Below are positions 43,648-64,000 of a stretch of DNA of 64,000 bases, in pieces (position 1 is the stretch's first letter; each line of letters opens with the position of its first letter). The notes under the pieces were generated by a model. It saw nothing but the letters and a program-made list of their open reading frames with translations. It made no database searches and was not told the origin of the DNA. The position numbers were made by a program, and so were the translations under genes. This stretch comes from Nitrospirales bacterium (GTDB lineage: Bacteria; Nitrospirota; Nitrospiria; Nitrospirales; UBA8639). The DNA lies in assembly GCA_029261295.1 (NCBI GenBank), contig JAJDBP010000031.1:1-64000 (forward strand), read 5' to 3'.

Positions 43648-43649
43648 AA

Positions 43650-47929: not shown

Positions 47930-48865
47930 ATGGAAATGACTTCAACAAATCTATTTGAAGAATTGTTTTTTCAGGCACTGCGTATTCGGCTGGTTGAAGA
48001 ACGGATTATTGAGTTGTATCCCTCCGATGCCATTCAAAGTCCGGTGCATTTGTCGATTGGGCAAGAGGCGGTGGCTGTCGGTGCCTGTCATGCCCTGACA
48101 AGCAATGATCTCCTCTTTTGTACCTATCGAAGCCATGCCTTTTACTTGGCCAAGGGAGGAAATTTAAATGAAATGTTTGCGGAACTTTATGGAAAAGTGA
48201 CTGGATGTGCGAGTGGAAAGGCTGGATCGATGCATCTAGCGGCCCCTGAAGTTGGTCTAATGGGGGCTTCGGCAGTAGTCGCTAGCACGATTCCACATGC
48301 GGTAGGTGCAGCATTGGCTGCTAAACAGTTAGGGAAAGATCAGGTCATTGTTGGGGTATTCGGAGATGGGGCGACTGAGGAGGGTGTGTATCATGAATCA
48401 CTCAATTTTGCGGCCTTGCACAAGCTGCCGGTAATTTTCTTATGTGAGAACAACGAACTTGCCGTACATTCGTTTCGAAAGGCGAGGCAAAACTATGAAA
48501 TTGTTGAGCATGCCCAAATCTATGGCCTTCCGGTTTACCAAATTACTGAGGGATATGATTTTGTAAAAGTGTCAGAGACAATGGCAGAAGTCATAAAACA
48601 GGTTCGGTCTGGCCAAGGCCCGGTTTTTGTGGAGATTCAGACCTTCCGCTACAAAGAGCATGTAGGACCAGGAGAAGACTTTGCGTGTGGGTACCGGAAT
48701 ATTCAAGAAGCCCAATGTTGGAAACAACAAGATCCGCTCAATCTATACCCTGCATTAGTGGAATCTTTTCGGCCCTCCATCCTCCAAGAAATTGATGCCG
48801 CGGTTCATTTTGCAGAACGTAGTTCATTCCCCTCCATCGAGGAGTTACTCCGTGATGTTGTGTAA
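47930..48865 (+). CDS. TPP-dependent dehydrogenase E1 alpha-like subunit
   Basis: A 311-residue protein of the pyruvate/acetoin dehydrogenase E1-alpha family. Thiamine diphosphate and Mg binding motif: G145-D-G (VFGDGATEEG) through CENN (N174-N175). YRSHAFYLAKGG and ASGKAGSMHL are also family-typical. With the beta subunit directly downstream it forms an E1-like enzyme, but no E2 or E3 gene is nearby. Within a sugar cluster it may transfer a two-carbon acyl unit from a 2-oxoacid to a keto-sugar, as proposed for E1-like pairs in branched-sugar biosynthesis; that is inference. The stop overlaps the beta-subunit start by 11 bases. Confidence 0.85.
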   Translation: MEMTSTNLFEELFFQALRIRLVEERIIELYPSDAIQSPVHLSIGQEAVAVGACHALTSNDLLFCTYRSHAFYLAKGGNLNEMFAELYGKVTGCASGKAGSMHLAAPEVGLMGASAVVASTIPHAVGAALAAKQLGKDQVIVGVFGDGATEEGVYHESLNFAALHKLPVIFLCENNELAVHSFRKARQNYEIVEHAQIYGLPVYQITEGYDFVKVSETMAEVIKQVRSGQGPVFVEIQTFRYKEHVGPGEDFACGYRNIQEAQCWKQQDPLNLYPALVESFRPSILQEIDAAVHFAERSSFPSIEELLRDVV

Positions 48866-49991
48866 TACAAACCTTACTTCTTCTGTGACCGAAGAAAAGG
48901 GGCTCGATCAACATCTGGGCACCGAAGGGGGAGTCCTGAGTTATCGTGATGCGCTTCACTGGACTATGCGTGAAGCTCTTCAACGACACGACTCTGTCGT
49001 CATCATGGGCCAGGGAGCGGATGATCATAAAGGGATTTTTGGTTCAACCATAGGATTAGCAGAAGAATTTGGTTTTGATCGAGTGATGGATACACCCCTC
49101 GCGGAAGAAGGAATGACTGGAATTGCGATTGGTGCAGCCTTAAATGGGTTGTATCCAATCCAGACCCATATCAGGGCGGATTTCTCCTTGCTGGCAATGA
49201 ATCAAATTATCAATTTAGCAGCCAAATACAAATATATGTTTGGTGGCCGATTTGATGTTCCTATGCTGATTCGAATGATTGTGGGTCGTAGTTGGGGCCA
49301 AGGTGCGCAACATTCCCAAAGTCTTCAATCCCTCTTTGCTCATATCCCTGGCTTGAAAGTTGTGATGCCATCAAGCTCACAAACCATTTTACATACGTAT
49401 CCTAAGATCATCGCTGACTATAGAGGCCCTGTTATTTCGTTTGAGCATAGGCTCATGTATGACTTGAATTTTCACGTCGAGCCTGTAACTCCCAACTATG
49501 GGGATGACCCTTTTGGATCTTATCTGGTTAGACAAGGTGATGATGTCACGATAGTGGCTACGTCTATCATGGTGTTGGAAGCCATGAGAGCAGCAGACCA
49601 TTTAGCTAAGGTGTCTGGTATTCAATCTGAAATAATTGATTTGCATTGTGTCTCGAATCCTGACTGGAACTTAGTGATGCAAAGTGTGGAGAAAACCGGA
49701 CGATTAATAGTGGCAGATACGAGTTGGAAGGAATACGGGGTATGTGCGGAGGTCTGTCGAGTGGTGGCCGAACGAAATCCTGGATGTTTAAAGAAGCCAG
49801 TGGTGACCCTGGCAATGCAACCGGCTCCTTGCCCCACGGCTAAGTCGTTAGAAGACCTCTTTTATCCTGATCTTCGTCAATTTGTCCATGCGATAGCCAC
49901 ACTTGTTCTTGGGAGTGAAGAGCATGGAATTCAATTGCCAGATACCCAATCCATGGCTGATGTCTATAAACGGTTTAAGGGGCCCTTTTAA
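48855..49991 (+). CDS. TPP-dependent dehydrogenase E1 beta-like subunit
   Basis: A 378-residue partner of the preceding subunit (transketolase-like pyrimidine-binding plus C-terminal domains). The catalytic-type Glu region TPLAEEGMTGIAIGAALNGL, the MLIRMIVGRSWGQGAQHSQS loop, PGLKVVMPSS and GPVISFEHRLMYDLN fit E1-beta. The C-terminal domain has VIDLHCVS-like and GRLIVADTSWK stretches. The ATG at 48855 overlaps the alpha-subunit stop and has GAGGAG about 11 bases upstream; a longer upstream reading would overlap the alpha gene further and is unlikely. An N-terminal extension of about 30 residues precedes the fold. Confidence 0.85.
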   Translation: MLCNTNLTSSVTEEKGLDQHLGTEGGVLSYRDALHWTMREALQRHDSVVIMGQGADDHKGIFGSTIGLAEEFGFDRVMDTPLAEEGMTGIAIGAALNGLYPIQTHIRADFSLLAMNQIINLAAKYKYMFGGRFDVPMLIRMIVGRSWGQGAQHSQSLQSLFAHIPGLKVVMPSSSQTILHTYPKIIADYRGPVISFEHRLMYDLNFHVEPVTPNYGDDPFGSYLVRQGDDVTIVATSIMVLEAMRAADHLAKVSGIQSEIIDLHCVSNPDWNLVMQSVEKTGRLIVADTSWKEYGVCAEVCRVVAERNPGCLKKPVVTLAMQPAPCPTAKSLEDLFYPDLRQFVHAIATLVLGSEEHGIQLPDTQSMADVYKRFKGPF

Positions 49992-50034: not shown

Positions 50035-51012
50035 ATGAAAATTTTGATCACAGGAATTACAGGAATGGTGGGTAGTCATCTTGCCGAGTATATTTTGGCT
50101 CAGCAACCTGGGGTAGAGGTTCATGGGATGCTGCGTTGGCGTAGCCCTTTAACCCATATCGATCATATCCAGGATCAGATCCATTTACATTATGCAGAGT
50201 TACGTGATCTTCATTCTTTGGTGGCTCTTCTTCGAAAAGTACAGCCTGAGAGAATTTTCCACTTAGCCGCCCAATCGTTTGTCACCACCAGTTTTGATGC
50301 CCCAGCCGATACTCTGCATACGAATGTCATTGGTACTACCAATTTATTGGATGCCATCCGAATCACAGGTATTGATACGAAAATTCATGTCTGTAGCTCT
50401 TCGGAAGTGTATGGACAGGTTTTAGAGGATGAAATACCCATTAAGGAATCGAATCCTTTTCGGCCTGCCAGTCCTTATGCGGTATCTAAGGTCGGGGAAG
50501 ATATGGTCGCCTTTCAATATTTTCTCTCTTACGGGATTAAAACGTATCGGACGAGGATGTTTACTCATACCGGGCCTCGCCGAGGCGATGTTTTTGCTGA
50601 AAGTGCCTATGCGAAACAAATCGTGGCAGTAGAATCTGGTTTTTGTGACAACCCGATTAGGGTGGGGAATCTGGACAGTATTCGAACTTTTGCGGATGTA
50701 CGTGATGCGGTTCGGGCCTATTGGCTGCTTTTAGAAAAATGCCAGCCAGGTGAAGTTTATAATATCGGGGGCAATCGAACGATGACTTGCGGCGATATGC
50801 TTGGATTATTGAAAGGGATGGCACGATGTCCTATCGAACATGTCGTGGATTCGGCTCTTCTTCGACCCTCAGATGTGACCCTACAAATACCAGATACGAC
50901 AAAATTTCATAAAGCGACTGGGTGGGTCCCAGAAATCCCATTTGAAGACACGCTTCATCACTTGCTCGACTATCACCGCGAAAAAACCAAAAATATAGTG
51001 TTGGCCGCATGA
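50035..51012 (+). CDS. GDP-sugar 4,6-dehydratase, GMD/DmhA-like
   Basis: A 325-residue extended SDR. The NAD(P)-binding motif TGITGMVGSHL (6-16) and active site SSSEVYG (121-127) with Y148-x-x-x-K152 are present. IFHLAAQSFV, NVIGTTNLLDAIR and FTHTGPRRGDVF fit GDP-mannose 4,6-dehydratases. Given the HddA- and HddC-like neighbours, the natural substrate may be GDP-D-glycero-D-manno-heptose (DmhA/DdahA-type activity giving a 4-keto-6-deoxyheptose). GDP-mannose remains possible. GGGAAGAAG precedes the ATG. The stop overlaps the kinase start by four bases. Confidence 0.85.
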   Translation: MKILITGITGMVGSHLAEYILAQQPGVEVHGMLRWRSPLTHIDHIQDQIHLHYAELRDLHSLVALLRKVQPERIFHLAAQSFVTTSFDAPADTLHTNVIGTTNLLDAIRITGIDTKIHVCSSSEVYGQVLEDEIPIKESNPFRPASPYAVSKVGEDMVAFQYFLSYGIKTYRTRMFTHTGPRRGDVFAESAYAKQIVAVESGFCDNPIRVGNLDSIRTFADVRDAVRAYWLLLEKCQPGEVYNIGGNRTMTCGDMLGLLKGMARCPIEHVVDSALLRPSDVTLQIPDTTKFHKATGWVPEIPFEDTLHHLLDYHREKTKNIVLAA

Positions 51013-52130
51013 TTATTTCCCGGACCCCGTATCGTTTATCATTTTTTGGAGGTGGGACAGATTTCCCACAATGGTATCTCAAAGAAACAGGGGCTGTTCT
51101 GTCTGTCACCATCGATAAGTATTGTTATTTGAGCTGCCGACATCTCCCACCATTTTTCAATATCAAACACCGTATTGTGTGGTCTCATATTGAAACGGTA
51201 TCAAGCATTGCAGAAATTCTGCATCCCGCGGTACGCGAAGGGTTACGGTTCTTAGGTTTCGATGATTCGGAGGGCATAGAAATCCAGCATCAAGGTGATT
51301 TGCCTGCAAGAAGTGGAATTGGATCCAGCTCTTCATTTTCCGTGGGGCTTATAAAAGCCCTCACGGGTTTGAAAGGAGGCATGCTGGGCAAAATGGAATT
51401 GGCTCGTCAGGCCACGATGCTAGAGCAGGAAGTTTTAAAGGAAACGGTGGGTTCTCAAGATCAGGTGGCTGCAGCGTTTGGTGGGCTAAATTTCATTCAA
51501 TTTTCAAAAAACGGACAGATTGAAGTTGAGCCGGTCACGTTATCTTCAGCGCGGGTAGAGGAATTGGAGCAGAGTCTTATTCTTCTGTACACAGGAACAA
51601 GTCGATTAGGTTCCGAAATCGCGATTAATTCAACCAAAAATTTCTGTAAACGCTCTGCTGTACTGAAAGAAATGTTTTCCATGGTGGACCAGGGAATTAG
51701 CATTTTAAGTGGGAAGGGGCCATTAGAGGAATTTGGAAAGTTGCTTCATAAGAGCTGGATGTTAAAACGATCACTCTCAGACGATATTTCCAACATCACC
51801 ATTGATGAAATTTATCAAAAAGCTTTAGCCAATGGAGCAATTGGAGGAAAACTGTCTGGTGCGGGCGGCAGTGGATTTATGTTGTTTTATGTTCCGATCC
51901 TCAAGCAGACAAATTTTCTTTTGGCAATGAAGCCATATATTTGCGTACCTTTTACCTTCACCCAATCAGGCAGCAGTATTATTTATTATGATGAATCCTA
52001 TAAAGCTACGAATGGAGGATATGCTTCTGGGGTTGAGGGCGCTCAAAAGGTTATGCAAAAAAGAGATCTTTCAATGATCAAAGCGAATAAGAAAATAAAA
52101 GAAAAAAATCTTGTGGGAAATCGCAACTAA
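51009..52130 (+). CDS. GHMP kinase, HddA-like heptose-7-phosphate kinase
   Basis: A 373-residue GHMP-family kinase. RTPYRLSFFGGGTDFPQWYL (5-24), the ATP loop LPARSGIGSSSSFSVGL (98-113), and the C-terminal KLSGAGGSGFMLFY are those of D-glycero-alpha-D-manno-heptose-7-phosphate kinase HddA. Fucokinase-like kinases are the alternative. It would make the 1,7-bisphosphate that a GmhB-type phosphatase then trims; GmhA and GmhB are not in the window. A Lys-rich tail of about 30 residues follows the fold. The ATGA overlap with the preceding gene implies coupled translation. Confidence 0.85.
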   Translation: MIISRTPYRLSFFGGGTDFPQWYLKETGAVLSVTIDKYCYLSCRHLPPFFNIKHRIVWSHIETVSSIAEILHPAVREGLRFLGFDDSEGIEIQHQGDLPARSGIGSSSSFSVGLIKALTGLKGGMLGKMELARQATMLEQEVLKETVGSQDQVAAAFGGLNFIQFSKNGQIEVEPVTLSSARVEELEQSLILLYTGTSRLGSEIAINSTKNFCKRSAVLKEMFSMVDQGISILSGKGPLEEFGKLLHKSWMLKRSLSDDISNITIDEIYQKALANGAIGGKLSGAGGSGFMLFYVPILKQTNFLLAMKPYICVPFTFTQSGSSIIYYDESYKATNGGYASGVEGAQKVMQKRDLSMIKANKKIKEKNLVGNRN

Positions 52131-52703
52131 ATGAGTGCTGAGAAGTCCTGCTCCCCTTTGGGTTATCCAAGATTGGTTAAGAGTAATGAGGTCTTTGGAT
52201 GTCCATGGTTTCATGTTCATGAAGAAATATGGGAGGAGGGTGTTGAGAAAGACCAACCCCCATTTTACCGGATTGAAAGTGCCGATGGCGTTTTGGTGCT
52301 GGGTTTAACGACTAAAGGCGAAATTATTTTGGTTCGGCAGTTTCGGCATGCGGTTCGGCGAATGACTCTAGAATTTCCCGCTGGATCTGTGGATCAAGAG
52401 GAAAGCCCGGAAGAGGCCGCAGCTCGAGAGTTATTCGAAGAGACCGGATATCGGTCATCACATCTTTTGCCATTAGGAAGCGGGCATTTAATGGTTAATC
52501 GATCTGGTGCAAGGGGGCATATATTTTTGGCCAAAGACTGCGAACGAGATCGAGTGGCTTCAATTCAAGGAAATGAAGAAGTACATGTCGTCTCCCCAGA
52601 AACCTTTAAGGATTTAGTGTTGACCGGAGAGGTTGAGCATATCCCGACTTTATCTCTCTTAATTTTAGCAGAATGGAAGACGGGAGTTCGGTTGGTCGCG
52701 TAA
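52131..52703 (+). CDS. Nudix hydrolase
   Basis: A 190-residue Nudix protein. The Nudix box is complete: G85-x5-E91-x7-R99-E-L-F-E-E-T-G-Y107. The N-terminal beta domain and QFRHAVRR before the box resemble the ADP-ribose/GDP-sugar pyrophosphatase branch. It may hydrolyse a nucleotide sugar and so control pools in this pathway, or clean up dead-end products. It starts at the base right after the HddA-like stop, so the two are tightly coupled. Substrate unknown. Confidence 0.85.
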   Translation: MSAEKSCSPLGYPRLVKSNEVFGCPWFHVHEEIWEEGVEKDQPPFYRIESADGVLVLGLTTKGEIILVRQFRHAVRRMTLEFPAGSVDQEESPEEAAARELFEETGYRSSHLLPLGSGHLMVNRSGARGHIFLAKDCERDRVASIQGNEEVHVVSPETFKDLVLTGEVEHIPTLSLLILAEWKTGVRLVA

Positions 52704-52728: not shown

Positions 52729-53472
52729 TTGAGAAATTTTGACCACACATTTTTTCAAGAACAAGGTTTTTGTATTGTCGATAACATTTTTACTTCTAAA
52801 CAATGTGATGCCTTGATTGCTGCTTCACAGGAACTTCCTTCCTATAAGGATGGAACGTTGACTCCTGTGATGAATCCTCATTTTCTGCATGAGGAGGTTT
52901 TCCAGGCTATGCGGTGTGAAAAGATAATCGAAATTTTAGAAGGACTCTTTTCTGGACCAGTGAGTGGACTCCAAAGCCAATTCTTTTATTGTCGACCTGG
53001 AACACCAGGGTTTTCTCAGCATCAGGATAATTTTTATGTTCAAGCCAAACCAGAGGTCTTTGGGTCGGCATGGGTGGCCTTGGATGACGTGACTCCTGAA
53101 AACGGTGGATTAGTTGTTTTTCCAGGAAGTCATACTGAGGAGATCTTACCGACAGAGGCTATTCCACAGAGCAATACGTTCGGGCAAGATCCCAATGCTG
53201 TGTGTCAGCAAGCCCTCATACCCAAGAAGTATTCTCCTATTGATCTATGTGTCGATAAAGGAGGAGTGGTGTTTATTCATGGGCATTTGGTTCATTCCTC
53301 GCATAATAATTCCACAGAAAATAATTTTAGGCACGCGTTGCTGTTGACGTATATACGGAAAGGAGAGGCTTTTCGATCTGGTTTTTCGGCAAAACGTCAA
53401 GAAATATCCTTATCTAAAGATCATCTTCATGATCGAATGCTACAAGGGAGTGCTTGTGAACACACTTACTAA
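52729..53472 (+). CDS. PhyH-family Fe(II)/2-oxoglutarate oxygenase (first)
   Basis: A 247-residue phytanoyl-CoA dioxygenase-like enzyme. The iron facial triad is visible: H98-x-D100 (QHQDNFYV) and distal H189 (HGHLVHSSHNNST). R201 (NFRHALLL) is placed to bind 2-oxoglutarate. GGLVVFPGSH is also typical. In sugar or natural-product clusters such enzymes hydroxylate, epimerise or form orthoesters; the substrate here is unknown. The start is TTG 52729 after AAGGGGA. A downstream FkbM-type gene begins inside its last codons. Confidence 0.83.
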   Translation: MRNFDHTFFQEQGFCIVDNIFTSKQCDALIAASQELPSYKDGTLTPVMNPHFLHEEVFQAMRCEKIIEILEGLFSGPVSGLQSQFFYCRPGTPGFSQHQDNFYVQAKPEVFGSAWVALDDVTPENGGLVVFPGSHTEEILPTEAIPQSNTFGQDPNAVCQQALIPKKYSPIDLCVDKGGVVFIHGHLVHSSHNNSTENNFRHALLLTYIRKGEAFRSGFSAKRQEISLSKDHLHDRMLQGSACEHTY

Positions 53473-54490
53473 TCACCCTCTTTTCAAAATGATTGCACCC
53501 TATAGCGAATTAAAGAAAAGACCTTTGGGTTTTGTTGATATTGGTGCAAGGGGAGGAATTCATCCACTTGTTCAACCTTTAGCTGAAGTCACGGGAGTGT
53601 TGGGATTTGAACCTGATAAGGATGAGTGCCAACGATTGAAAGAGGATGGTCAGAACGGTTCCTCATGGGCCACTTGTGAATTCGAACCTGTTGCCCTAGC
53701 AGAAAAAACAGGAAATTCCATTCTTTATTTACTTGCAGCCGAAACGAATCATTCCTTGCGACCTCCCAATCAAGAGTTTATCGAACGGTATGACATGGTG
53801 AAGTTTGAACAAACTGGTAGCACAGGAGTGGAGACGACTACCCTTGACGAGGTGTTGTTTTCCCGTCGAGCACATGAGCCTTATTGGGGAGAATTTTTGA
53901 AGCTCGATACCCAGGGGACAGAATTTGAAATTTTAACTGGAGCAGAACGAACCCTTACAGAACGAACATCCGCAATTCTCATAGAGGTAGAATTTTGTCA
54001 GATCTATAGCGAACAAAAGCTTTTCTCAGAGGTAGAAATGTTTCTTCGAGAACGTGGATTTTCATTTTACGGGTTTTCTCAAATGGCCTTTCGTTCGTGT
54101 AAACAACTGAATAAACAAAAAGAAATGGGGCAGGAAAGGGTTCTTTGGGCGGATGCCATTTTTTTTAAAGAAACCGTCCATTCTCAATCGCTAAGTCCCT
54201 TCCAGCAATGTCGACAGCATTATGTCCTTTTCGTCACGGCTGTACTGCTTGGATATTTCGATTTTGCTTTAGAAATTGCCCGAAAGACATGGGCTAAAGG
54301 TACAGAGGGGCAGCAGGTACTTGAACTTATTCAAGATCTTGCCGCAATTCCTGAAGGGCACAGGTCGGCCCAGATTAGAGCACTTTCTGATGAGGTCCAA
54401 GCGAGTCCAACTCGTGCGAATGTCCTGATGGGAAAGTTCATTGATCAGCACCGTTTTGATGGGGATTACGGAGATGTGGTCTTACGTTGA
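53456..54490 (+). CDS. FkbM-family methyltransferase
   Basis: A 344-residue SAM-dependent O-methyltransferase-like protein. Motif I is FVDIGARGGIHPL (26-38), followed by GFEPD and the FkbM-typical FLKLDTQGTEFEILTGAERT. About 100 extra C-terminal residues (after 245) form a helical region without a clear match. FkbM enzymes methylate sugar or polyketide hydroxyls. GTG 53456 is preferred because AAGGGAG lies just upstream; an ATG at 53429 would extend the overlap with the PhyH gene. The seventeen-base overlap suggests coupling. Confidence 0.82.
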   Translation: MNTLTNHPLFKMIAPYSELKKRPLGFVDIGARGGIHPLVQPLAEVTGVLGFEPDKDECQRLKEDGQNGSSWATCEFEPVALAEKTGNSILYLLAAETNHSLRPPNQEFIERYDMVKFEQTGSTGVETTTLDEVLFSRRAHEPYWGEFLKLDTQGTEFEILTGAERTLTERTSAILIEVEFCQIYSEQKLFSEVEMFLRERGFSFYGFSQMAFRSCKQLNKQKEMGQERVLWADAIFFKETVHSQSLSPFQQCRQHYVLFVTAVLLGYFDFALEIARKTWAKGTEGQQVLELIQDLAAIPEGHRSAQIRALSDEVQASPTRANVLMGKFIDQHRFDGDYGDVVLR

Positions 54491-54496
54491 AGGTAG

Positions 54497-55225
54497 ATGA
54501 AAGGTCTTATGAATACCGCTATACGGTCTCGCCATTTTGTTGATCATGTGTCGGAGGGATTTTCGGTTGGTCTCCTTACAGCACTGAGACAACATCTTGA
54601 AAGAATCCAAGATGAACGGCAAATGAACGCTCCTACCCAACGTGAAGTAAATGGCTTGAAATTAGGAGCAGGAACTGATGCTTTAAGAATGGATCCTCGA
54701 TGGTATGAGGTTTGGAGAGAAACGTCTGCTGAGCTTTTGTTAGCTCTCGGTTCCTATACATGGGTGGTGTTTCCTCCACAAGTGAGGCTGGTGGAATCAA
54801 TACATCATTTAGTTCCTTGGCATCAAGATGTGGGGTATCAAAAGATCCTTGGTGCAGGAGGACATAAACGAATTATGACCTGTTGGATTCCCATGAATGA
54901 ATTTCCCTCTCGCCACTCCACTCTTCAATTTGCACTAGATGAAAACAGTGAACTTGCCCATGTTCCACTTGATGGGCATGGGGCGGGTCTTGCACGCCAA
55001 GAATGGGCATCGGTGAAACATTACAATTTAGCGTTTGGAGATTGTTTGCTTTTTGGAGACCTAACCATTCATCGAACATTTGTCCCAGAAGGCCGTACTC
55101 TGGCCCGGCGCTCTTTGGAGTTCCGGCTGGTATCTCCCGAGGATGCAATCGAAGGAAAAGACTACTTTAATATTATCGAAGGTCAATTCGTGCGAACAGA
55201 TGGCACGGTAAGGGAGTTTCCATGA
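54497..55225 (+). CDS. PhyH-like Fe(II)/2-oxoglutarate oxygenase (second)
   Basis: A 242-residue protein only distantly like the PhyH enzyme at 52729. The iron-binding pattern is present: H109-x-D111 (VPWHQDVGY) and H192 (FGDLTIHRTF), with R205 or R210 as the 2-oxoglutarate anchor. CWIPMNEFPSRHSTLQF matches the strand where PhyH enzymes read GGL-x-FxPGSH. A second oxygenase in the same cluster implies two separate oxidations or an oxidative ring closure. Translation could start at 54497 or 54509. Its stop overlaps the next gene by four bases. Confidence 0.72.
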   Translation: MKGLMNTAIRSRHFVDHVSEGFSVGLLTALRQHLERIQDERQMNAPTQREVNGLKLGAGTDALRMDPRWYEVWRETSAELLLALGSYTWVVFPPQVRLVESIHHLVPWHQDVGYQKILGAGGHKRIMTCWIPMNEFPSRHSTLQFALDENSELAHVPLDGHGAGLARQEWASVKHYNLAFGDCLLFGDLTIHRTFVPEGRTLARRSLEFRLVSPEDAIEGKDYFNIIEGQFVRTDGTVREFP

Positions 55226-56019
55226 GTCAGTCACAGGATGGTAATCCAAAAGGCAATGGGGTCATTGATGGACGAACCAATTGGGGGGCAGATGACAATA
55301 TTGAAACCCTTCTTGATGAGCATTTTGAAAAATTCGATATTTCAAAACGAGAAATTTGGAGAAATTTCCAAGTCTATTCTCGACGAGTTTTTTTGAAAAA
55401 ATTTCTCGCGCATTATGATTTTTATAAACAGGTAATGGGGCTACCCGGGGATATAGTTGAACTGGGTGTGTATCGAGGAGCCTCTCTGCTGTCATGGGCG
55501 AATTTCCTTGAGATTAGGAATATGGGCGATCGGCATAAGAAGGTCGTTGGATTCGATAATCACCAAGGATTTGGCAAGTTAGATGAGAAAGATGGCATAG
55601 AAAATCAGCAATTAGGGAAAGTGGAGGGAGGATTTGCCTGCGATCAATTTGAAGAGCAACTTCAAGATGCCATTCGGATTTTTGATCAAGATCGGTTTAT
55701 TCCTTACAAGCCGCGGGTGGTGTTAGTCAAAGGGGATATCGAACAAACGGTTCCTCAATATGTAAACGATAACCCAGGTCTTAGGATTTCTCTGCTGCAC
55801 TTTGATGCAGATTTATATCGTCCGACTCTAGTGGGCTTAGAACATTTGTGGCCGTTGGTGGTACCCGGTGGGATTGTTCTTTTCGATGAATATGGGATCC
55901 CTCCATGGGAAGGTGAAAGTAAAGCTGTCGATGAATTCTTTGCCGATAAAAAGGTAAAAATTCAACGACTGGATTGGTGCCCTAATCCCGGCGGATATAT
56001 CGTAAAGGAAACGTTTTAG
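55222..56019 (+). CDS. TylF/MycF-type O-methyltransferase
   Basis: A 265-residue enzyme of the TylF family, which methylates sugar hydroxyls using SAM and a metal ion. The SAM motif is DIVELGVYRGASL (about 77-89); VVGFDNHQGFG and LLHFDADLYRPTLVGLEHLW supply the SAM and metal-binding acids, and VLFDEYG the downstream one. MycF and TylF act on deoxysugars in macrolides, which fits a methylated deoxysugar here. The ATGA overlap with the preceding oxygenase gene shows coupling. Confidence 0.87.
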   Translation: MSQSQDGNPKGNGVIDGRTNWGADDNIETLLDEHFEKFDISKREIWRNFQVYSRRVFLKKFLAHYDFYKQVMGLPGDIVELGVYRGASLLSWANFLEIRNMGDRHKKVVGFDNHQGFGKLDEKDGIENQQLGKVEGGFACDQFEEQLQDAIRIFDQDRFIPYKPRVVLVKGDIEQTVPQYVNDNPGLRISLLHFDADLYRPTLVGLEHLWPLVVPGGIVLFDEYGIPPWEGESKAVDEFFADKKVKIQRLDWCPNPGGYIVKETF

Positions 56020-56045
56020 GGCATGACCGTAAGAAAGGTTATCGT

Positions 56046-57044
56046 GTGATGGGGGTCAGTGTTGGTTTGGCTGAATTAGAGGAAAACGGGCAGCGTCATT
56101 TGGAATGCGCCCAATCTGTATCCGAATTGAGCGTATCTGATTTTGCAAAGCTCATTGGGGAATCAGTTTCACATATCGGTCTTGATACACAAGATTTTTT
56201 GAGGAGATTTGATTTTCGGTACTCCCCTGTAGAATCGGAGGAAAAGGAAGGTCTTGTCCTTAAAATTTTGAAAAATCTGGATTCTAGAAAATTTTCCACT
56301 GTTGGACCTCAACGATATGGAATTTGGAATAGTGCGTGGGAAAAAACCTCACAACGGTTTTCTCAGGATAACCATTCTGGTGAGGCGTTAACTCCAGATT
56401 TTCTCGATGCGCACCCGGTTGTACGATTACATCGTGAATTTATTCGTCCTTGTGTCCCATCGTTTGAAGGCAATGTGTTTTCAGTGTTGCGCCATTGGTT
56501 GTTTCAGCAATATTTTTCTTCGATTCAAAGTATTTACGAATTTGGCTGTGGGAGTGGATTTAATTTAGTGGCCTTAGCAGAAATGTTTCCAAATAAAACT
56601 CTTGTTGGATTAGATTGGGCCCAATCATCAGTAGACCTAGTCAATAAAATCGGAGCGGTGAAGGCATTGCGTTTGACTGGGAGGAAGTTTGATTTTTTCT
56701 CGCCTGGCCATGACCTGGAATTGGAAACAAGCAGTGCCGTGTTGACAGTGTGTGCTTTGGAACAAATCGGAAAAGAATATCAACCCTTCATTGATTTTCT
56801 CTGTGACCAAAAACCTCAGGTCTGTATCCATGTGGAGCCCATTTATGAGTTGTACGATGAGGATAACCTCCTTGATTACCTAGCCATGCGGTACCACTCC
56901 GACCGGGGATATCTTATGGAATTTTTCCCATATTTACAAAAGCTTGAAGCTGACAAAAAAATCAAAATTATTAAAGTGAAAAGAATGTATTTTGGCAGTT
57001 TATATCATGAGGGTTATACCTGTGTGATATGGAAACCTTTGTAA
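56046..57044 (+). CDS. class I SAM-dependent methyltransferase
   Basis: A 332-residue protein with a methyltransferase core in the C-terminal half: YEFGCGSGFNL (about 164-174), NKTLVGLDWAQSS and VLTVCALEQIG. The N-terminal 130 residues have no recognised domain and may bind the acceptor. It is the third methyltransferase in this stretch. The start is GTG 56046 or ATG 56049, after AAGG. The SDR gene begins at the base after its stop. Substrate unknown. Confidence 0.8.
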   Translation: MMGVSVGLAELEENGQRHLECAQSVSELSVSDFAKLIGESVSHIGLDTQDFLRRFDFRYSPVESEEKEGLVLKILKNLDSRKFSTVGPQRYGIWNSAWEKTSQRFSQDNHSGEALTPDFLDAHPVVRLHREFIRPCVPSFEGNVFSVLRHWLFQQYFSSIQSIYEFGCGSGFNLVALAEMFPNKTLVGLDWAQSSVDLVNKIGAVKALRLTGRKFDFFSPGHDLELETSSAVLTVCALEQIGKEYQPFIDFLCDQKPQVCIHVEPIYELYDEDNLLDYLAMRYHSDRGYLMEFFPYLQKLEADKKIKIIKVKRMYFGSLYHEGYTCVIWKPL

Positions 57045-57827
57045 ATGAATTTAGGTTTGCAAGGAAAAAAAGTTTTGGTAACGGGAGGAAGTTATGGGAT
57101 TGGGCGTGCCATTGCTCTGGGGTTATCCGAAGAGGGGTGTGATGTTGCCATCTGCTCTCGACAATCTTTGCCTTTAGAAAAAACAGTTCAGGAATTGAAG
57201 TCTAAAGGGTGCCGTAGCCTTGGGATACAAGGAGATGTGACGCAAGATGCAATTCCCGATCAGGTGATTGGTGCGATTGTGGATGCATGGGGAACCATAG
57301 ATATTTTAATTAATAATGTTGGGGGCGGGGGAGGACGAGTTGAAGGAAGTATTGAAGAATTAGGGGAAGAGCCGTGGCTACATACCTATTCCCTGAATGC
57401 CATGGCCGCCATAAAATTTACAATGAAAGCCATTCCTCTCATGCGAAATCAACATTGGGGGCGTGTCGTCACTATTGCGTCTATTCAAGGACGAGAAGGA
57501 ACCGGACGTCCTTGGTATGCAGTTTCAAAAAGTGCGGAGATCACTTTGATGAAAACATTGGCTCGAAACCCTGATTTAGTAAGAGATGGTCTCACATTCA
57601 ATAGTATTGCCCCAGGTACGATCTTTACTGAGGGAAATGATTGGGGAAGGTTTAAAGAGGAAAATCCAGATAAATTTCATTCTGTGATTCAGGAAAAATG
57701 CCCAATGGGAAGGCCCGGAAGGCCGGATGAAGTTGCTGCGGTGGTCGGTTTCGTCTGTTCGGAATCAGCAAGCTTTATGAATGGAGCATGTCTGGTGGTA
57801 GATGGCGGGGAAAGTCGATGCATTTAA
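57045..57827 (+). CDS. short-chain dehydrogenase/reductase
   Basis: A 260-residue classical SDR. The cofactor motif T13-G-G-S-Y-G-I-G20, N90-N91-V-G and the catalytic triad S146, Y158 and K162 (WYAVSK) are all intact. It would reduce a keto-sugar or oxidise a hydroxyl, probably with NADP(H). FabG-like family members are common in such clusters, and nothing here points to fatty-acid synthesis. Its ATG abuts the previous stop, while a 77-base gap follows it. Confidence 0.9.
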   Translation: MNLGLQGKKVLVTGGSYGIGRAIALGLSEEGCDVAICSRQSLPLEKTVQELKSKGCRSLGIQGDVTQDAIPDQVIGAIVDAWGTIDILINNVGGGGGRVEGSIEELGEEPWLHTYSLNAMAAIKFTMKAIPLMRNQHWGRVVTIASIQGREGTGRPWYAVSKSAEITLMKTLARNPDLVRDGLTFNSIAPGTIFTEGNDWGRFKEENPDKFHSVIQEKCPMGRPGRPDEVAAVVGFVCSESASFMNGACLVVDGGESRCI

Positions 57828-57904
57828 AACGATTAGTTGAAAACTTTGTATGTCGGTATCACCCAAAATCACATGCTCGCGAATTGTAGGAGAGGAATTT
57901 GTTG

Positions 57905-59881
57905 ATGGGTAAAACGACAATTGGGTTGGTTCAAATCAATAACAGTTTTTCTGGGCAGAATTATCTTCCTTATTCGGTGGGTTTGCTTCAGGCCTATGCT
58001 CTAGAAAATATAAAAAACCCGGAGTCAATTCAGTTTTTGGTCCCTCTTTACTCGAGAATGAAAGTGGAAACAGCAGTTGAGCATTTAGCTCCTGCAGATA
58101 TTGTTGGGTTTAGCGTGTATGTATGGAATATTCGTCTGTCGTTAGCCATTGCAAAAAAGTTAAAAAAAATAAATCCAAAAACAGTCATTGTCTTTGGCGG
58201 ACCACAGGTTCCCGACCGGCCTGAACAATTCCTTCGAGAGCACCCATTTATTGATCTGGTCTGTCATGGCGAGGGAGAGCAGGTTTTTACTTCGATTATT
58301 GAAGGACATGGGAAGAAAGAATGGGAAGACATTCCCGCGGTAAGTTTTTTTAATACAAATAACAATTTTGTGACCCATGCAAGAGGGGGACGAGTTAAGG
58401 ATTTAGAATTATATCCTTCTCCCTATTTGAAGGATGTTTTTCAGCAATTGATACGTGAAAATCCCAATGAAAAATGGCTGGTCTTATGGGAAACAAATCG
58501 TGGGTGTCCCTTTGCCTGTACGTTTTGTGATTGGGGGTCTGCCATTGCTTCAAAAGTGTTCAAGTTTGACATGAGTCGATTGATGCAGGAGGTGGAATGG
58601 TTTGCCACCCACAAGATCGAATTCATTTTTTGCTGTGATGCGAATTTCGGTTTGCTGCCGAGAGATTATGAGATTGTTCAATTTGTCGGTGAGATGAAGA
58701 AGACTTCCGGTTTCCCTCAAGCCTTATCGGTGCAGAACACCAAGAATGCCACTGATCGAGCCTATAACGTTCAAAAGTTACTTCATGATGTCGGATTGAA
58801 TAAAGGAGTGACCATTTCATTCCAATCGATGGATCCTGCGGCCCTCAAAGCTTCCAAACGGCATAATATTTCAACCAAATCCTTTCAAGAATTGCAGATG
58901 AGGTTTGCTAAAGATGGTATTCCCACCTATAGCGATATGATTTTGGGGTTGCCTGAGGAAACGTATGAGAGTTTTGCTGAGGGTATTAGTGAAATTATTA
59001 CGAATGGACAACACAATAGAATCCAATTTAACAACCTTTCTATTTTGCCGAATGCAGAAATGGGTGATCCAGAATATCAAAAGCGGTATGGGATGAAAAT
59101 GGTGACTTCTCAGATCATTAATATTCATGGAACCCTGGAGGGGCAAGAAGATGGAGAAATTTTAGAGGATCAGGAATTAGTAGTTGGGACGTCGGCGATG
59201 CCTGAACAAGATTGGGTCAAAACTAGGGCCTTATGTTGGATGGCTGGCCTTACTCATTTCGACAAGCTGCTACAAATTCCCTTAGTTATTCTTCATGAGG
59301 TTGCCTCCTGTGAATACAGAAACCTATTGGAAGCGTTGATGATGCCACAACCCTCCCATCGCCCAATCTTTTCCGAGATTCAGCAATTTTTTCTGAATAA
59401 GGCGAAACACATACAACAGGGCGGACCGGAATATTGTTACTCAAAAGAATGGTTGAAGATTTGGTGGCCTGCAGATGAATTTATTCTCATTCAGCTTTGT
59501 GTGGAAGGAAAGTTAGAGGCCTTTTACCATGAAGCCGGAGAAATTTTTGACGAATTATTAATTGCTCGTGGTGAATCGTTTCCACCTGGACTGCTACAAG
59601 ATGCACTTTCACTGAATCGGCATTTATTGAAAATCCCATTTCAAAAAGAGGATATGGAGATTGAGCTCTCTTTTGGGGTTTGGGAATTTTACCAAGCCAT
59701 CATTCATGGAAAGGTGCTTCCAGTACTTGAACACTCCTCCCGCTATCACATTGACCGGACGAACCAAGCCTGGAACACATGGGATGACTGGTGTCGAGAA
59801 GTGGTCTGGTATGGGAATAAAAAGGGCGCGTATTTGTATGGGACTCATGCTTCTACGTTTGAATTAGCTGCGCACTATTGA
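57905..59881 (+). CDS. B12-binding-domain radical SAM enzyme
   Basis: A 658-residue enzyme. The N-terminal region (about 1-140) has the cobalamin-binding-like Rossmann fold of class B radical SAM enzymes (DIVGFSVYVWN, VIVFGGPQVPDRPEQFL, VCHGEGE) without a DxHxxG motif. The radical SAM core (from about 193) has the iron-sulfur motif C201-x3-C205-x2-C208 (NRGCPFACTFCDWG). About 200 C-terminal residues are unassigned. Such enzymes carry out C-methylation or ring rearrangement at unreactive carbons, so a C-methylated or rearranged sugar is a reasonable guess. GGAGAGGA precedes the ATG at 57905; a TTG six bases upstream is possible. Confidence 0.87.
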   Translation: MGKTTIGLVQINNSFSGQNYLPYSVGLLQAYALENIKNPESIQFLVPLYSRMKVETAVEHLAPADIVGFSVYVWNIRLSLAIAKKLKKINPKTVIVFGGPQVPDRPEQFLREHPFIDLVCHGEGEQVFTSIIEGHGKKEWEDIPAVSFFNTNNNFVTHARGGRVKDLELYPSPYLKDVFQQLIRENPNEKWLVLWETNRGCPFACTFCDWGSAIASKVFKFDMSRLMQEVEWFATHKIEFIFCCDANFGLLPRDYEIVQFVGEMKKTSGFPQALSVQNTKNATDRAYNVQKLLHDVGLNKGVTISFQSMDPAALKASKRHNISTKSFQELQMRFAKDGIPTYSDMILGLPEETYESFAEGISEIITNGQHNRIQFNNLSILPNAEMGDPEYQKRYGMKMVTSQIINIHGTLEGQEDGEILEDQELVVGTSAMPEQDWVKTRALCWMAGLTHFDKLLQIPLVILHEVASCEYRNLLEALMMPQPSHRPIFSEIQQFFLNKAKHIQQGGPEYCYSKEWLKIWWPADEFILIQLCVEGKLEAFYHEAGEIFDELLIARGESFPPGLLQDALSLNRHLLKIPFQKEDMEIELSFGVWEFYQAIIHGKVLPVLEHSSRYHIDRTNQAWNTWDDWCREVVWYGNKKGAYLYGTHASTFELAAHY

Positions 59882-59888
59882 GGAAATC

Positions 59889-60860
59889 ATGAATTATCGA
59901 GTGTTGGGGAAGACAGGACTTCTCGTTTCTGAAATTGGTTTTGGTTGTTGGGGAATTGGTGGGACCCACAATGGTGCAGTGGCATATGGGCCAACGGAGG
60001 AAACACAGTCTCTTCGAGCTCTATCCTGTGCGTTCGATCGAGGGATCAACTTTTATGATACGGCCGATTTTTATGGGTTCGGGCATTCAGAGTATCTAAT
60101 TGGAAAAGCGTTTAAGGATAAACGGACAAAAGTTATCATTGCCTCCAAGGGAGGAATGAATGCCAGTCCAAACCAAAAAGATTTTTCTCCCAGCTATCTT
60201 CGTCGTTCGCTAGAGGCAACTTTGCAGAGATTACAGACCGATTATCTGGATCTTTACCAATTACATGGTCCAAGTTTACATGATTTGGACAAGTATTGGG
60301 ATCTTCTCGAGCTTTTTGAAACGTTGAAGAGTGAAGGCAAAATTCGCACATTTGGAATTTCCGTACGATCTCCTGAAGAGGGCCTTGAGGTCGTTAGGAA
60401 GTTTCAATTTCCCTGTATTCAATCAAATTTTAGCCTCATTGATCAGCGTGCATTGGATAATGGCTTATTCCAACTTTGCGCCGAAAAACAGGTAGGAGTG
60501 ATTGGACGAACTCCCCTCTGTTTTGGATATCTTACGGGGCAGTACACGGGCCAAGAGATTTTTCCTGCTTCAGATCATCGTAGTCGGTGGTCAAAATTAC
60601 AGGTTGAAAAATGGGTCTCAAATAATCAACGCCTAGCCTCTCTCATTCCACACGATGTTCCTCGCTCGCCTTCCCAATTTGCTCTTCAATTTTGTTTGGC
60701 TTTTGAGATGGTCTCCACGGTGATCCCAGGGATGTTAACGGAAGACCAGGTCAATGAAAATTATCTAGCCACCAAAATCAAATCAATTCCCGGAAATGTT
60801 CTCCAGGAAATTAGGAATATATATGAACAGAGTCGAGAAGAATTAGCCATTTCTCATTGA
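59889..60860 (+). CDS. aldo/keto reductase
   Basis: A 323-residue AKR with the full catalytic tetrad: D57 (FYDTADFYG), Y62, K87 (IIASKGG) and H126 (LYQLHGPS). The form fits the AKR group that includes deoxysugar 3-ketoreductases and L-glyceraldehyde reductase-like enzymes. It starts seven bases after the radical SAM gene stop, with AGGAAA upstream. It may reduce a keto-sugar produced by the dehydratase or oxygenase steps. Confidence 0.9.
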   Translation: MNYRVLGKTGLLVSEIGFGCWGIGGTHNGAVAYGPTEETQSLRALSCAFDRGINFYDTADFYGFGHSEYLIGKAFKDKRTKVIIASKGGMNASPNQKDFSPSYLRRSLEATLQRLQTDYLDLYQLHGPSLHDLDKYWDLLELFETLKSEGKIRTFGISVRSPEEGLEVVRKFQFPCIQSNFSLIDQRALDNGLFQLCAEKQVGVIGRTPLCFGYLTGQYTGQEIFPASDHRSRWSKLQVEKWVSNNQRLASLIPHDVPRSPSQFALQFCLAFEMVSTVIPGMLTEDQVNENYLATKIKSIPGNVLQEIRNIYEQSREELAISH

Positions 60861-60879: not shown

Positions 60880-61395
60880 ATGGAAGTTCGCAAAACAAAA
60901 TTAGAAGGCGTTTTACTCATGAAGCCTCCTACCATATTTGAAGACTTTCGAGGTACCTATGTTGAAACGTTCAATCAGCAGTTATATGCAGAATGTGGGG
61001 TGACCTGCTCATTTGTTCAAGATGATATATCCGTATCAACAAAAGGGGTTTTGCGGGGGATTCATGGTGATCAACAAACGTGGAAATTGATTTCATGCCT
61101 CTATGGCAAGTTCTATATGGTGGTAGTGAACTGGGACAAGAATTCGCCTCAGTTTGGCCAATGGGAGGCTTTTGATTTATCTGATCAAAATAGGCTGCAG
61201 GTTTTGGTGCCGCCTCATTTTGGCAATGGCCATCTCGTCCTTAGTGAAAAAGCCATTTTTCACTATAAACAAACGTCATACTATGACAGGGCTGGCCAAT
61301 TTACGCTTTTGTGGAATGACCCTCAGTTGAACATCTGGTGGCCCAATAAAAATCCCATTGTATCTAGAAGGGATGAGGGCAAGGAAAATGTTTAA
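60880..61395 (+). CDS. RmlC-like NDP-sugar 3,5-epimerase
   Basis: A 171-residue cupin of the dTDP-4-dehydrorhamnose 3,5-epimerase family. SFVQDDISVSTKGVLRGIHG contains the catalytic-base H62, and Y134/Y135 (YKQTSYYD) supply the acid. The usual PxGFAHGF is changed to PPHFGNGH. In GDP-6-deoxyheptose pathways of Campylobacter, RmlC-like enzymes (MlghB/DdahB type) epimerise C3 and/or C5 of the 4-keto sugar, the role proposed here. AAGGGG precedes the ATG. The stop overlaps the next gene by eight bases. Confidence 0.85.
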   Translation: MEVRKTKLEGVLLMKPPTIFEDFRGTYVETFNQQLYAECGVTCSFVQDDISVSTKGVLRGIHGDQQTWKLISCLYGKFYMVVVNWDKNSPQFGQWEAFDLSDQNRLQVLVPPHFGNGHLVLSEKAIFHYKQTSYYDRAGQFTLLWNDPQLNIWWPNKNPIVSRRDEGKENV

Positions 61396-62395
61396 AGATA
61401 AAAACATTTTGGTCACTGGAGGCGCAGGATTTATTGGGGTAAATTTGCTTGAAAAACTTTTAGGTGAAGGGTGTGAGATTCGTGCCACGTTTCACAATTC
61501 CCCCCCAGTTATTCGTGCTGAGAATATTGAATATGTTCAGGCCGATTTGACAGTTTTAGAAGACTGCCAACGGGTGGTTCAGGGTATGGATTACGTGTTT
61601 ATGTGTGCAGCGAATACTTCCGGTGCCGCGGTTATCGCTCAAACACCATTGGTTCATGTCACGTCAAATGTAGTGATGAATGCTCAAATGTTGGAGTCGG
61701 CATATAACGCGAAAATTAAAAAAATCTTATTTGTTAGTAGCAGCATTGTATATCCTCCCGCCGGTGGTCGGGCGAATCTGGAGGAGGAATGGCTAATAGA
61801 TGATCCGTATGAGGCCTATTACGGGGCGGGGTGGATGAAACGTTATAGCGAAATCTTGTGCAAAATATACTCTGAAAAAGTGAAGAACCCTATGTCAGCT
61901 GTGGTAGTCCGTCCGTCAAACCTTTATGGACCTCATGACAAATTTGATTTTCAACGTTCTCACGTGACGGCAGCTTTACTTAGAAAAGTTGTCGAAAGGC
62001 ATGATCCACTTGAAGTATGGGGAACCGGGGAGGATGTAAGGGATATTATATATGTTGAGGATTTCATTGAGGGAATGTTACTCGCATTTGAAAAGCTTGA
62101 CGGTTTTAATCCGATCAACCTGGCAAGTGGAGCCGGCTATCGTATCAAGGATATTCTGCAGACTTTACTTGAAATTGATGACTTTAGACGTGCTAACGTT
62201 ATGTTTAATTCGTCTAAACCTTCAACGATTCCCATCCGCTGTATTGATACAGCAAAGGCTCAAAAATTATTGGGATTCTCTGCCAAAACGACATTGGAGG
62301 AAGGTCTGAGGAAAACGCTTCAGTGGTACAGGGAGAATTGTTGTTTTGGTAAACAAGAAAGCACTATTGGGCAACCAATATCTGCAGCGGTCTAA
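61388..62395 (+). CDS. NAD-dependent epimerase/dehydratase (reductase-like)
   Basis: A 335-residue extended SDR, possibly of the GDP-fucose-synthase type. The cofactor motif TGGAGFIGVNL (10-20) and VSSSIVYPP (117-124) are standard. The active-site region reads YYGAGWMKRYSE: the Lys is K151, but the residue four before it is A147, where the family's catalytic Tyr should be, with Tyr at 144 and 145 instead. It is probably the C4 reductase or an epimerase acting after the RmlC-like step. The ATG at 61388 overlaps the previous gene. A 118-base gap with no recognisable feature follows. Confidence 0.85.
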   Translation: MFKDKNILVTGGAGFIGVNLLEKLLGEGCEIRATFHNSPPVIRAENIEYVQADLTVLEDCQRVVQGMDYVFMCAANTSGAAVIAQTPLVHVTSNVVMNAQMLESAYNAKIKKILFVSSSIVYPPAGGRANLEEEWLIDDPYEAYYGAGWMKRYSEILCKIYSEKVKNPMSAVVVRPSNLYGPHDKFDFQRSHVTAALLRKVVERHDPLEVWGTGEDVRDIIYVEDFIEGMLLAFEKLDGFNPINLASGAGYRIKDILQTLLEIDDFRRANVMFNSSKPSTIPIRCIDTAKAQKLLGFSAKTTLEEGLRKTLQWYRENCCFGKQESTIGQPISAAV

Positions 62396-62513
62396 CGCGA
62401 TTGACCATTTAGAATGCAAATGTATCTCGTAAATCTTTAAGTTCCTGGATTTTGTTTGACGGACAACCAAGAATATACCAAGAAATCAGAATAGATTGAT
62501 GGAGGAGGTTCTT

Positions 62514-64000
62514 GTGAATGTTCCCATAATCAACGGGCCTTTGGAGCAAACAGTGCATCAAAAATCTGAACCCCTAGTGTCCGTTTTTGTGTCTGTGTAT
62601 AACTCTGAAAGGTTTTTATGTGGAGCATTAGAAGAATTAGAAGGTCAAACTATTGTAGACAAATTAGAAATTATCATTATAGAAACGGGGTCTCCGGCTA
62701 ATGAGATTGAGATTGTTCGTGAATTCCAAAAAAAATATAACAATATCATTTATTTAAGGACTGGTGATCGAGAATACCCTCCAGCGGCAGTCAATCGTGG
62801 AATTAAGGTCGCATCAGGGAAGTTTTTCACGATTGCGAATTCTGATGATCGGTATCGACCTGATGCATTTGAAATTATGGTAGGGGAATTGTTGAAAAAT
62901 CCAGAGGCAGGTTTGGTCTACGGCGATATTTTCGTGACGAGTTATGCAAACCAAACGTTTCAACGTTTTATAAGGTGTGGGTATTCAATTCGCCCGGAAT
63001 ACTCCAAGGAAATTATGCTTTCAGGCTGTCATATAGGGCCACAACCCATGTGGCGTAGGGAGGTGCATGAAGAATTTGGACTGTTTGATGAATCGTTAGA
63101 GACTGCGGCCGATTATGAATTTTGGTGTCGGATTGCTCAAAAATATTCATTTAAATATATTCCGAAATTCTTAGGCGTGTATTTTCACAATCCTCAGGGG
63201 ATGGTTAATTCAAACAAGGATAAGGGTTTAGAGCAAACACAACTCGTCAAAAGAATATATCAAGACAAATTTCCTCCCCCGCAGAAGGATTTTGTGAAAA
63301 GGCTTCATTACCTTAAGAACGTGCCAGCTAACCGATATGTCAATATTGGGATGGTGACCTTTAATCGGCTTGAATTCACGAAATCATCGATTGCTTCTCT
63401 ATTAGAATTCACATGTTTTCCACATGTCATTACCGTTGTGGATAATGGAAGTACGGATGGGACTGGTGAATATCTTCAGGGACTGAAAAAAGAGGGGATC
63501 ATTACTAATTTAATTCTTTTAAAAGAAAATGTCGGGATTGCTAAAGCGTCAAACTTAGCTTGGAGTCAAGAACCCAATGCCGAATATTATGTAAAATTTG
63601 ATAACGATATTGTGATTCAAAAACCGAATTGGCTCGAACGGATGGTTGGGATTATCGATGCTGCTTCGGACTTGGCGATGGTAGGCTATAATTTTGAACC
63701 GAAAAGTTATCCGATTCAAATCATCAATGGACTAAAGGTCAGGCCCAAGACCGGGAATCTTGGTGGGGCCTGTGTCTTAATCCCCAAGCGAACTGAGCAA
63801 TTATTAGGATATTGGTGCGAGGATTATGGTTTATATGGTGAAGAAGATGCAGATTATGGGATCCGTCTCACTTTATCTGGTCTCATGCATGCCTATATGG
63901 AGGATGAGCAAGTCGGTGTCCATCTGCCTGCTGGAAGGGCTGCCCACATCGATCCTAGAACATCGCTAGCTGAGGATGGAATAGAAGAACGCCAATATGC
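62514..64000 (+). CDS. tandem two-domain family 2 glycosyltransferase, partial
   Basis: An open reading frame that runs off the right edge after 495 codons. It holds two GT-A glycosyltransferase modules. Module 1 (about 20-250) begins PLVSVFVSVYNSERFL and has the metal motif NSDD (109-112), with ETAADYEFW as acceptor-side motif. Module 2 (from about 275) begins NIGMVTFNRLEFTKSSI, has VVDNGSTDGT and the metal motif D363-N-D365, and includes GGACVLIPKR and YGEEDADYGIRL. Tandem enzymes of this kind add two sugars or alternate linkages. GGAGGAGGT lies just before the GTG at 62514, making that start firm. It probably transfers the sugar made by this island. Confidence 0.9.
   Translation, partial: MNVPIINGPLEQTVHQKSEPLVSVFVSVYNSERFLCGALEELEGQTIVDKLEIIIIETGSPANEIEIVREFQKKYNNIIYLRTGDREYPPAAVNRGIKVASGKFFTIANSDDRYRPDAFEIMVGELLKNPEAGLVYGDIFVTSYANQTFQRFIRCGYSIRPEYSKEIMLSGCHIGPQPMWRREVHEEFGLFDESLETAADYEFWCRIAQKYSFKYIPKFLGVYFHNPQGMVNSNKDKGLEQTQLVKRIYQDKFPPPQKDFVKRLHYLKNVPANRYVNIGMVTFNRLEFTKSSIASLLEFTCFPHVITVVDNGSTDGTGEYLQGLKKEGIITNLILLKENVGIAKASNLAWSQEPNAEYYVKFDNDIVIQKPNWLERMVGIIDAASDLAMVGYNFEPKSYPIQIINGLKVRPKTGNLGGACVLIPKRTEQLLGYWCEDYGLYGEEDADYGIRLTLSGLMHAYMEDEQVGVHLPAGRAAHIDPRTSLAEDGIEERQY

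Follow-up and report, generated by a model that had tools for sequence, protein, structure and literature searches.

The DNA analysed here (the window) is the first 64,000 nucleotides of contig JAJDBP010000031.1 from a Nitrospirales bacterium, and its positions 52729 to 59881 hold a run of oxygenase, methyltransferase and radical S-adenosylmethionine (SAM) genes. The run forms the central part of a cassette of 8.4 kb (∼52.5–60.9 kb) inside a flagellar glycosylation island, whose gene order is fliW-csrA, hddC-like, E1 alpha, E1 beta, dehydratase, hddA-like, Nudix, cassette, RmlC-type, reductase, four glycosyltransferases and fliC-flaG-fliD-fliS. We think it likely that the run is a set of tailoring genes that can be exchanged within a flagellin glycosylation island, and that flagellin is O-glycosylated with a decorated 6-deoxyheptose. 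The sugar is probably C2-branched, C- and O-methylated and oxidised. A bolder proposal, to which we would give somewhat less than an even chance, is that this is an undescribed flagellin sugar, a 6-deoxyheptose carrying a two-carbon branch from an E1-like thiamine pyrophosphate (TPP) enzyme pair, a C-methyl group from a cobalamin-dependent radical SAM enzyme and two Fe(II)/2-oxoglutarate (Fe/2OG) oxidations, and that its chemistry has been changed between species by the swap of one cassette in a fixed slot.

The limits of the cassette were seen by comparison with relatives, whose kinship was taken from genus and family labels and whose genes were called as plain longest open reading frames. 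The order-level set held 235 other genomes plus the genome of the window itself (236 in total). The same arms lie in the same slot, from fliW-csrA to fliC, in four genomes of the same genus (G005, G010, G019 and G002) and in one of another genus (G028), and in three more (G017, G012 and G001) they are present in the parts that the contigs reach. The E1 and dehydratase proteins are 73–89% identical in the first five, and the RmlC, reductase and glycosyltransferase genes are also common. DNA homology was compared in these five genomes, after the G002 loci had been joined. The left arm is 71–75% identical over ∼47.2 or 47.96 to 52.5 kb (to 51.5–52.0 kb in G002 and G028), and the collinear block ends at 52454 (G005), 52543 (G010), 52544 (G019), 51993 (G028) or 51503 (G002). 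The right block begins at 60925 in all five, with an identity of 66–68%, and no DNA homology between the two blocks was reported in any of them. The breaks at the block edges indicate that the gene run is more than a chance adjacency; it is, almost to the gene, the replaced cassette.

Most relatives carry in the slot the N and C halves of a split transketolase, an epimerase, a small protein, a different aldo-keto reductase (AKR), a methyltransferase homologue (37–39% identical), a TylF homologue (∼30%) and an epimerase, with a rearranged version and extra genes in G002. The position is thus fixed while its sugar content differs among relatives, as expected of a flagellin glycosylation island. 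Two genomes (G009 and G014) keep the glycosyltransferases and fliC and have no hddA-E1 module, which marks the sugar module as the variable part. The hddA gene groups with the genus in a tree. The GC content of the cassette (0.41–0.46) is indistinct from that of the arms, so that composition does not date the swap. The first-pass annotation had proposed a neighbourhood search for the same gene set beside fliW-csrA; no second case of the whole set was found among the other genomes examined.

The flagellar role is supported by the genes on both sides of the island, which within the window are on the plus strand like those of the run. The left border is formed by fliW (46077–46556; Pfam FliW, 4e-34) and csrA (46615–46875; Pfam CsrA, 5e-22), at 46.0–46.9 kb, and fliC-flaG-fliD-fliS lie ∼12 kb downstream of the run, beyond the view of the first-pass annotation. 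Sugar and glycosyltransferase genes are therefore contiguous with the flagellin and cap genes. A modified heptose is supported by the arms. The left arm opens with an HddC-like heptose-1-phosphate guanylyltransferase (47152–47910; NTP_transferase) and continues with adjacent genes for an E1 alpha-like TPP enzyme subunit (47930–48865; E1_dh 7e-56, a GDG motif, nearest PDB entry pyruvate dehydrogenase E1 alpha) and an E1 beta-like subunit (48855–49991; Transket_pyr and Transketolase_C). These are followed by a GDP-heptose 4,6-dehydratase (50035–51012), whose top PDB match is 7us5, GDP-D-glycero-D-manno-heptose 4,6-dehydratase (5e-75), an HddA-like heptose-7-phosphate 1-kinase of the GHMP type (51009–52130) and a Nudix hydrolase identified by family scan (52131–52703), which closes the conserved left arm and within which DNA homology to G005, G010 and G019 ends. 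The right arm begins with an RmlC-type epimerase (60880–61395), whose top PDB match is 8dco, GDP-4-keto-heptose 3,5-epimerase (2e-34, only narrowly ahead of dTDP-rhamnose RmlC). Next come a GDP-fucose-synthase-like epimerase/reductase (61379–62395; family scan and PDB comparison) and the start of a 1925-amino-acid multidomain GT2 glycosyltransferase (62496–64000, continuing past the window), then GT9, GT1-like and GT9 genes and fliC, flaG, fliD and fliS. By their top PDB matches the dehydratase and the epimerase are closest to Campylobacter-type GDP-heptose enzymes, as in a GDP-6-deoxyheptose pathway. The flagellar setting, the GDP-heptose precursor and the E1-like TPP pair of the first-pass annotation are thus all supported.

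The cassette itself consists of eight plus-strand genes, all open, that overlap by 44 or 4 bases or lie 0–71 bases apart, in the order and at the positions first described. A PhyH-type Fe(II)/2OG oxygenase (52729–53472; Pfam PhyH 2e-28, HQD at 98, distal His, Arg) overlaps an FkbM-type methyltransferase (53429–54490; Pfam FkbM, Methyltransf_21 1e-15) by 44 bp, provided that the first ATG of the latter is used. There follow a divergent PhyH-like oxygenase (54497–55225), overlapping by 4 bp a TylF-type O-methyltransferase (55222–56019; Pfam TylF 3.5e-17), a class I methyltransferase with an N-terminal extension of ∼150 amino acids (56046–57044) and a short-chain dehydrogenase (SDR; 57045–57827; adh_short_C2 3e-47, GxxxGIG and YxxxK). 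After a gap of 71 bp comes a cobalamin-dependent radical SAM enzyme resembling TokK, CysS and KedN5 (57899–59881; B12-binding 5e-13, Radical_SAM 6e-11, Cx3Cx2C at 203), and an AKR (59889–60860; Aldo_ket_red 8e-55), just past the originally noted interval, completes the unit. Pfam thus bears out the labels PhyH, FkbM, TylF, SDR and B12 radical SAM, while the second PhyH and the class I methyltransferase are sub-threshold. The PhyH-like protein scores 19.1 bits (E 0.0017), below the Pfam PhyH (PF05721) gathering cut-off of 22 bits, and gives no match at the default threshold; its motif is intact: HQD stands at residue 109, the distal His at 192, and the tail contains Arg. A search of the order's 235 other genomes, of plasmids and of viral contigs found no relative of this protein. 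The class I methyltransferase falls below threshold for every Pfam methyltransferase model, yet has the SAM motif EFGCGSG at 165; homologues occur in 10 other genomes of the order and in G372, and it recurs in heptose/TPP clusters. With three methyltransferases, a radical SAM C-methylase-like enzyme, oxygenases and an SDR, the gene content is consistent with the heavily methylated and oxidised product first suggested.

The radical SAM protein matches TokK at 1e-95 (profile 3e-118) and CysS at 1e-55 across both the B12 and the radical SAM domains. In addition to the B12 domain and Cx3Cx2C, it has the lower-face Trp of this type: its invariant Trp76 (YVWN) aligns with TokK Trp76 and CysS Trp75, the residues covering cobalamin on its lower face (PMC12846815). 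Within the order, only four of the 235 other genomes have an orthologue (57%), all of them outside the genus and with the gene in a heptose/TPP sugar cluster, and there are a few more in the phylum and on two alphaproteobacterial contigs of metagenome-assembled genomes. In six other loci (G032, G039, G045, G057, L007 and L008), two of them alphaproteobacterial, the gene directly after the radical SAM gene is an AKR, and in a tree the window AKR groups with these radical-SAM-linked AKRs, apart from the slot AKR of its relatives (100/100). The radical SAM-AKR pair is therefore a conserved module present in at least two phyla; no assigned substrate was found for it. The only other relative of PhyH in the 236 genomes lies in G039, 1.4 kb from the radical SAM gene, and the best relative of FkbM (47%) lies in G032, ∼4 kb from the radical SAM gene of a radical-SAM/heptose cluster. 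That these relatives lie so near rare radical SAM orthologues again argues for more than chance adjacency. Similarly, G372 has a radical SAM orthologue (54%), a methyltransferase (41%), TylF, RmlC (67%), dehydratase (64%), hddA (52%) and a split transketolase. The cassette parts thus belong to a sugar-tailoring repertoire that recurs in several genomes and probably entered the flagellar slot in this one. No flagellar genes were seen within the stretches read around the radical SAM orthologues.

Some related gene arrangements were also seen. In G306 (L040:13767-17142), two adjacent radical SAM genes of the TokK/CysS-like family, of 469 and 657 amino acids, lie beside an epimerase and a DegT aminotransferase; the 469-amino-acid gene is perhaps a truncated paralogue. 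In a genome of the same genus, another type of heptose cluster (L076; G016:C14:1-11527) has hddA, split transketolase, epimerase, AKR, methyltransferase and RmlC beside a carbamoyltransferase-like protein; its AKR is 49% identical to that of the window, and no flagellar context was seen on that short contig.

Since the relatives TokK, CysS and KedN5 act in antibiotic pathways, the cassette might be thought to serve the synthesis of a small diffusible natural product and not the decoration of a glycan. We regard this as very improbable, given that nucleotide-sugar genes stand on both flanks and around most of the radical SAM orthologues read (heptose or nucleotide-sugar genes in the latter case), and that no polyketide synthase (PKS), non-ribosomal peptide synthetase or resistance gene was found among the proteins scanned around the island, from 46 to 78 kb.

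A number of results weigh against a flagellin cassette acting on a heptose. The NCBIfam assignments of the heptose enzymes are below their cut-offs: HddA is the top model for the kinase (8e-47) with 160 against 600 bits, and for the guanylyltransferase HddC reaches 135 of 300 bits, behind mannose-1-phosphate guanylyltransferase (man1P_GTase) with 165 of 440. The radical SAM protein scores 279.9 bits against the 700 required for the KedN5 family (NF033712), making it a homologue and not a member. Single-sequence AlphaFold2 models of the PhyH-like protein and the class I methyltransferase gave predicted local distance difference test (pLDDT) values of 31 and 35 and were not used for fold searches, so that the fold assignment of the PhyH-like protein rests on its sequence motifs. 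The window TylF lies on a very long branch, apart from the TylF of the genus, and was rejected as a vertical orthologue of it. Finally, the radical SAM core of G032 and of G057 is found among polysaccharide genes, WecA-like or other, away from fliW, and so the sugar is not necessarily a flagellar one.

This last point bears on the alternative in which the sugar is destined for a cell-surface polysaccharide (O-antigen or exopolysaccharide), the place of the island between flagellar genes being incidental. The clusters of G032, where a Glycos_transf_4 gene is nearby, and of G057 are of the polysaccharide type; the stretches read there contain no flagellar genes, and fliW is located elsewhere in both genomes. 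However, no flippase, polymerase or ligase was found among the 46–78 kb genes, the heptose-E1 arms and the four glycosyltransferases hold their exact place, ending in fliC, across the genus and in G028 of another, and where the hddA-E1 arm is missing (G009 and G014) the glycosyltransferases still adjoin fliC. We therefore consider a polysaccharide sugar unlikely. The first-pass annotation had counted an occurrence beside secreted-polysaccharide genes in relatives against its own proposal, and here the outcome is divided: the heptose-E1 backbone is flagellar within the genus, whereas the radical SAM core is found in polysaccharide-type loci of other families.

The same annotation had likened the run to orthosomycin clusters, in which case the two PhyH enzymes would bridge the heptose glycan by an orthoester or a methylenedioxy group. 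The joint presence of two PhyH-type oxygenases, a pyruvate dehydrogenase (PDH)-like TPP pair and O-methyltransferases speaks for such chemistry. Against it, the PhyH protein is closest to human PHYHD1 (2e-10) and PHYH (3e-9), with EvdO2 at 0.017 and 4xaa, which we take to be an orthosomycin oxygenase, at 0.34; the PhyH-like protein had no orthosomycin oxygenase match. The oxygenases are thus not nearest to the EvdO/AviO/HygX enzymes, no PKS (including one for orsellinate) or halogenase was found among the 46–78 kb proteins, no other orthosomycin hallmark was found, and no result favoured a bridge over hydroxylation. On the features examined, the cluster is not a member of the orthosomycin group, and bridge formation seems quite improbable to us. 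A partial working likeness may exist, as a TPP pair and oxygenases acting on a sugar are also found in the everninomicin and avilamycin clusters, and the PDH-like pair EvdU5/EvdS3 (by hypothesis) and oxygenases have been invoked for the eurekanate of everninomicin (PMC10338323). In contrast to those clusters, the island would use a heptose rather than a pentose precursor, lacks an orsellinate PKS and has a flagellar context, with oxygenases whose nearest relatives are elsewhere.

Returning to a decorated flagellin heptose, we infer the following substrates and order of steps. The conserved arms would make a GDP-linked 6-deoxy-4-keto-heptose. A GmhA-like sedoheptulose-7-phosphate isomerase, encoded on another contig (C19:28166-28624), may supply the HddA-like kinase, followed by the HddC-like guanylyltransferase; the dehydratase would then give the 4-keto sugar, with its configuration fixed by the RmlC-type epimerase and the reductase. 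The E1 alpha/beta pair probably places a two-carbon unit from a 2-oxo acid on the keto carbon, as proposed for eurekanate, where EvdU5/EvdS3 are hypothesised to transfer a C2 unit onto a 4-keto sugar; YerE is a further TPP precedent for C2 branching (PMC10338323). The occurrence elsewhere of a split transketolase beside the E1 pair, or replacing it, would fit a need for a TPP-bound C2 unit. As our best guess, the TokK/CysS-like enzyme C-methylates an unactivated carbon, perhaps iteratively, and its partner AKR may reduce a carbonyl. From family membership, FkbM, TylF and the class I enzyme would O-methylate, and the two Fe/2OG oxygenases and the SDR would hydroxylate or oxidise. The constant set of GT2, GT9 and GT1-like enzymes beside fliC would then attach the sugar to flagellin before the protein is exported from the cytoplasm; the place of these genes, together with the lack of a flippase or polymerase among those scanned, points to such a transfer.

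Genes for the N and C halves of a split transketolase are found repeatedly (L036:2968-4609, L037:443-2084 and L071:6665-8501), in flagellar heptose clusters or in those with heptose and radical SAM genes. In some cases they accompany the E1 pair and in others they take its place, which suggests that the two are interchangeable TPP chemistry.

Polymorphic flagellin glycosylation islands are known, for example in the flagellin modification of C. difficile. As in those islands, sugar-synthesis and glycosyltransferase genes beside fliC vary while the flagellar neighbours are constant, but here the sugar would be derived from GDP-heptose and the genes include a TPP pair, Fe/2OG oxygenases and a B12 radical SAM enzyme. 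The GDP-6-deoxyheptose pathway of Campylobacter (7us5, 8dco), which serves the capsule, shares the GDP-heptose 4,6-dehydratase, the RmlC-type C3/C5 epimerase and the GDP-fucose-synthase-like reductase; to our knowledge it has no TPP pair, PhyH or radical SAM enzyme. The window protein resembles TokK, CysS and KedN5 in its B12 and radical SAM domains, Cx3Cx2C and lower-face Trp, and differs from them in that its C-terminal third is unaligned and that its neighbours are nucleotide-sugar genes and an AKR, not antibiotic genes. The open-access literature yielded nothing directly relevant on flagellin islands with radical SAM enzymes, Nitrospira flagellin glycosylation or TPP-branched nucleotide sugars. 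B12 radical SAM C-methylase-like and Fe/2OG oxygenase reactions are best known from antibiotics; the island would bring them to a probable flagellar glycan. It also provides a natural experiment, with the slot, heptose arms and glycosyltransferases constant and the tailoring cassette different, which makes identification of the substrate tractable. The cassette swap would show how the surface sugars of the filament diversify, possibly under pressure from phages or grazers.

Three further features of the flagellar region were noted. By eye, the 1925-amino-acid GT2 protein (L009:496-6273; C25 62496-68273) has TPR repeats and a ParB-like stretch followed, at its C-terminal end, by a segment resembling a class I methyltransferase (DFGCNLGQAS). 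This last segment was not reported by Pfam; it may be one more methyltransferase, fused here to the glycosyltransferase. Between the last GT9 gene and fliC (L009:11260-11901) lies a gene for a protein of ∼180–210 amino acids without a Pfam match, which is ∼56–72% identical to proteins in the same slot of other genomes read. Between flgL and fliW (window positions 42676–45989), a response regulator/GGDEF gene is paired with a hybrid sensor kinase gene, and the same pair occupies the same place in G028 and G002.

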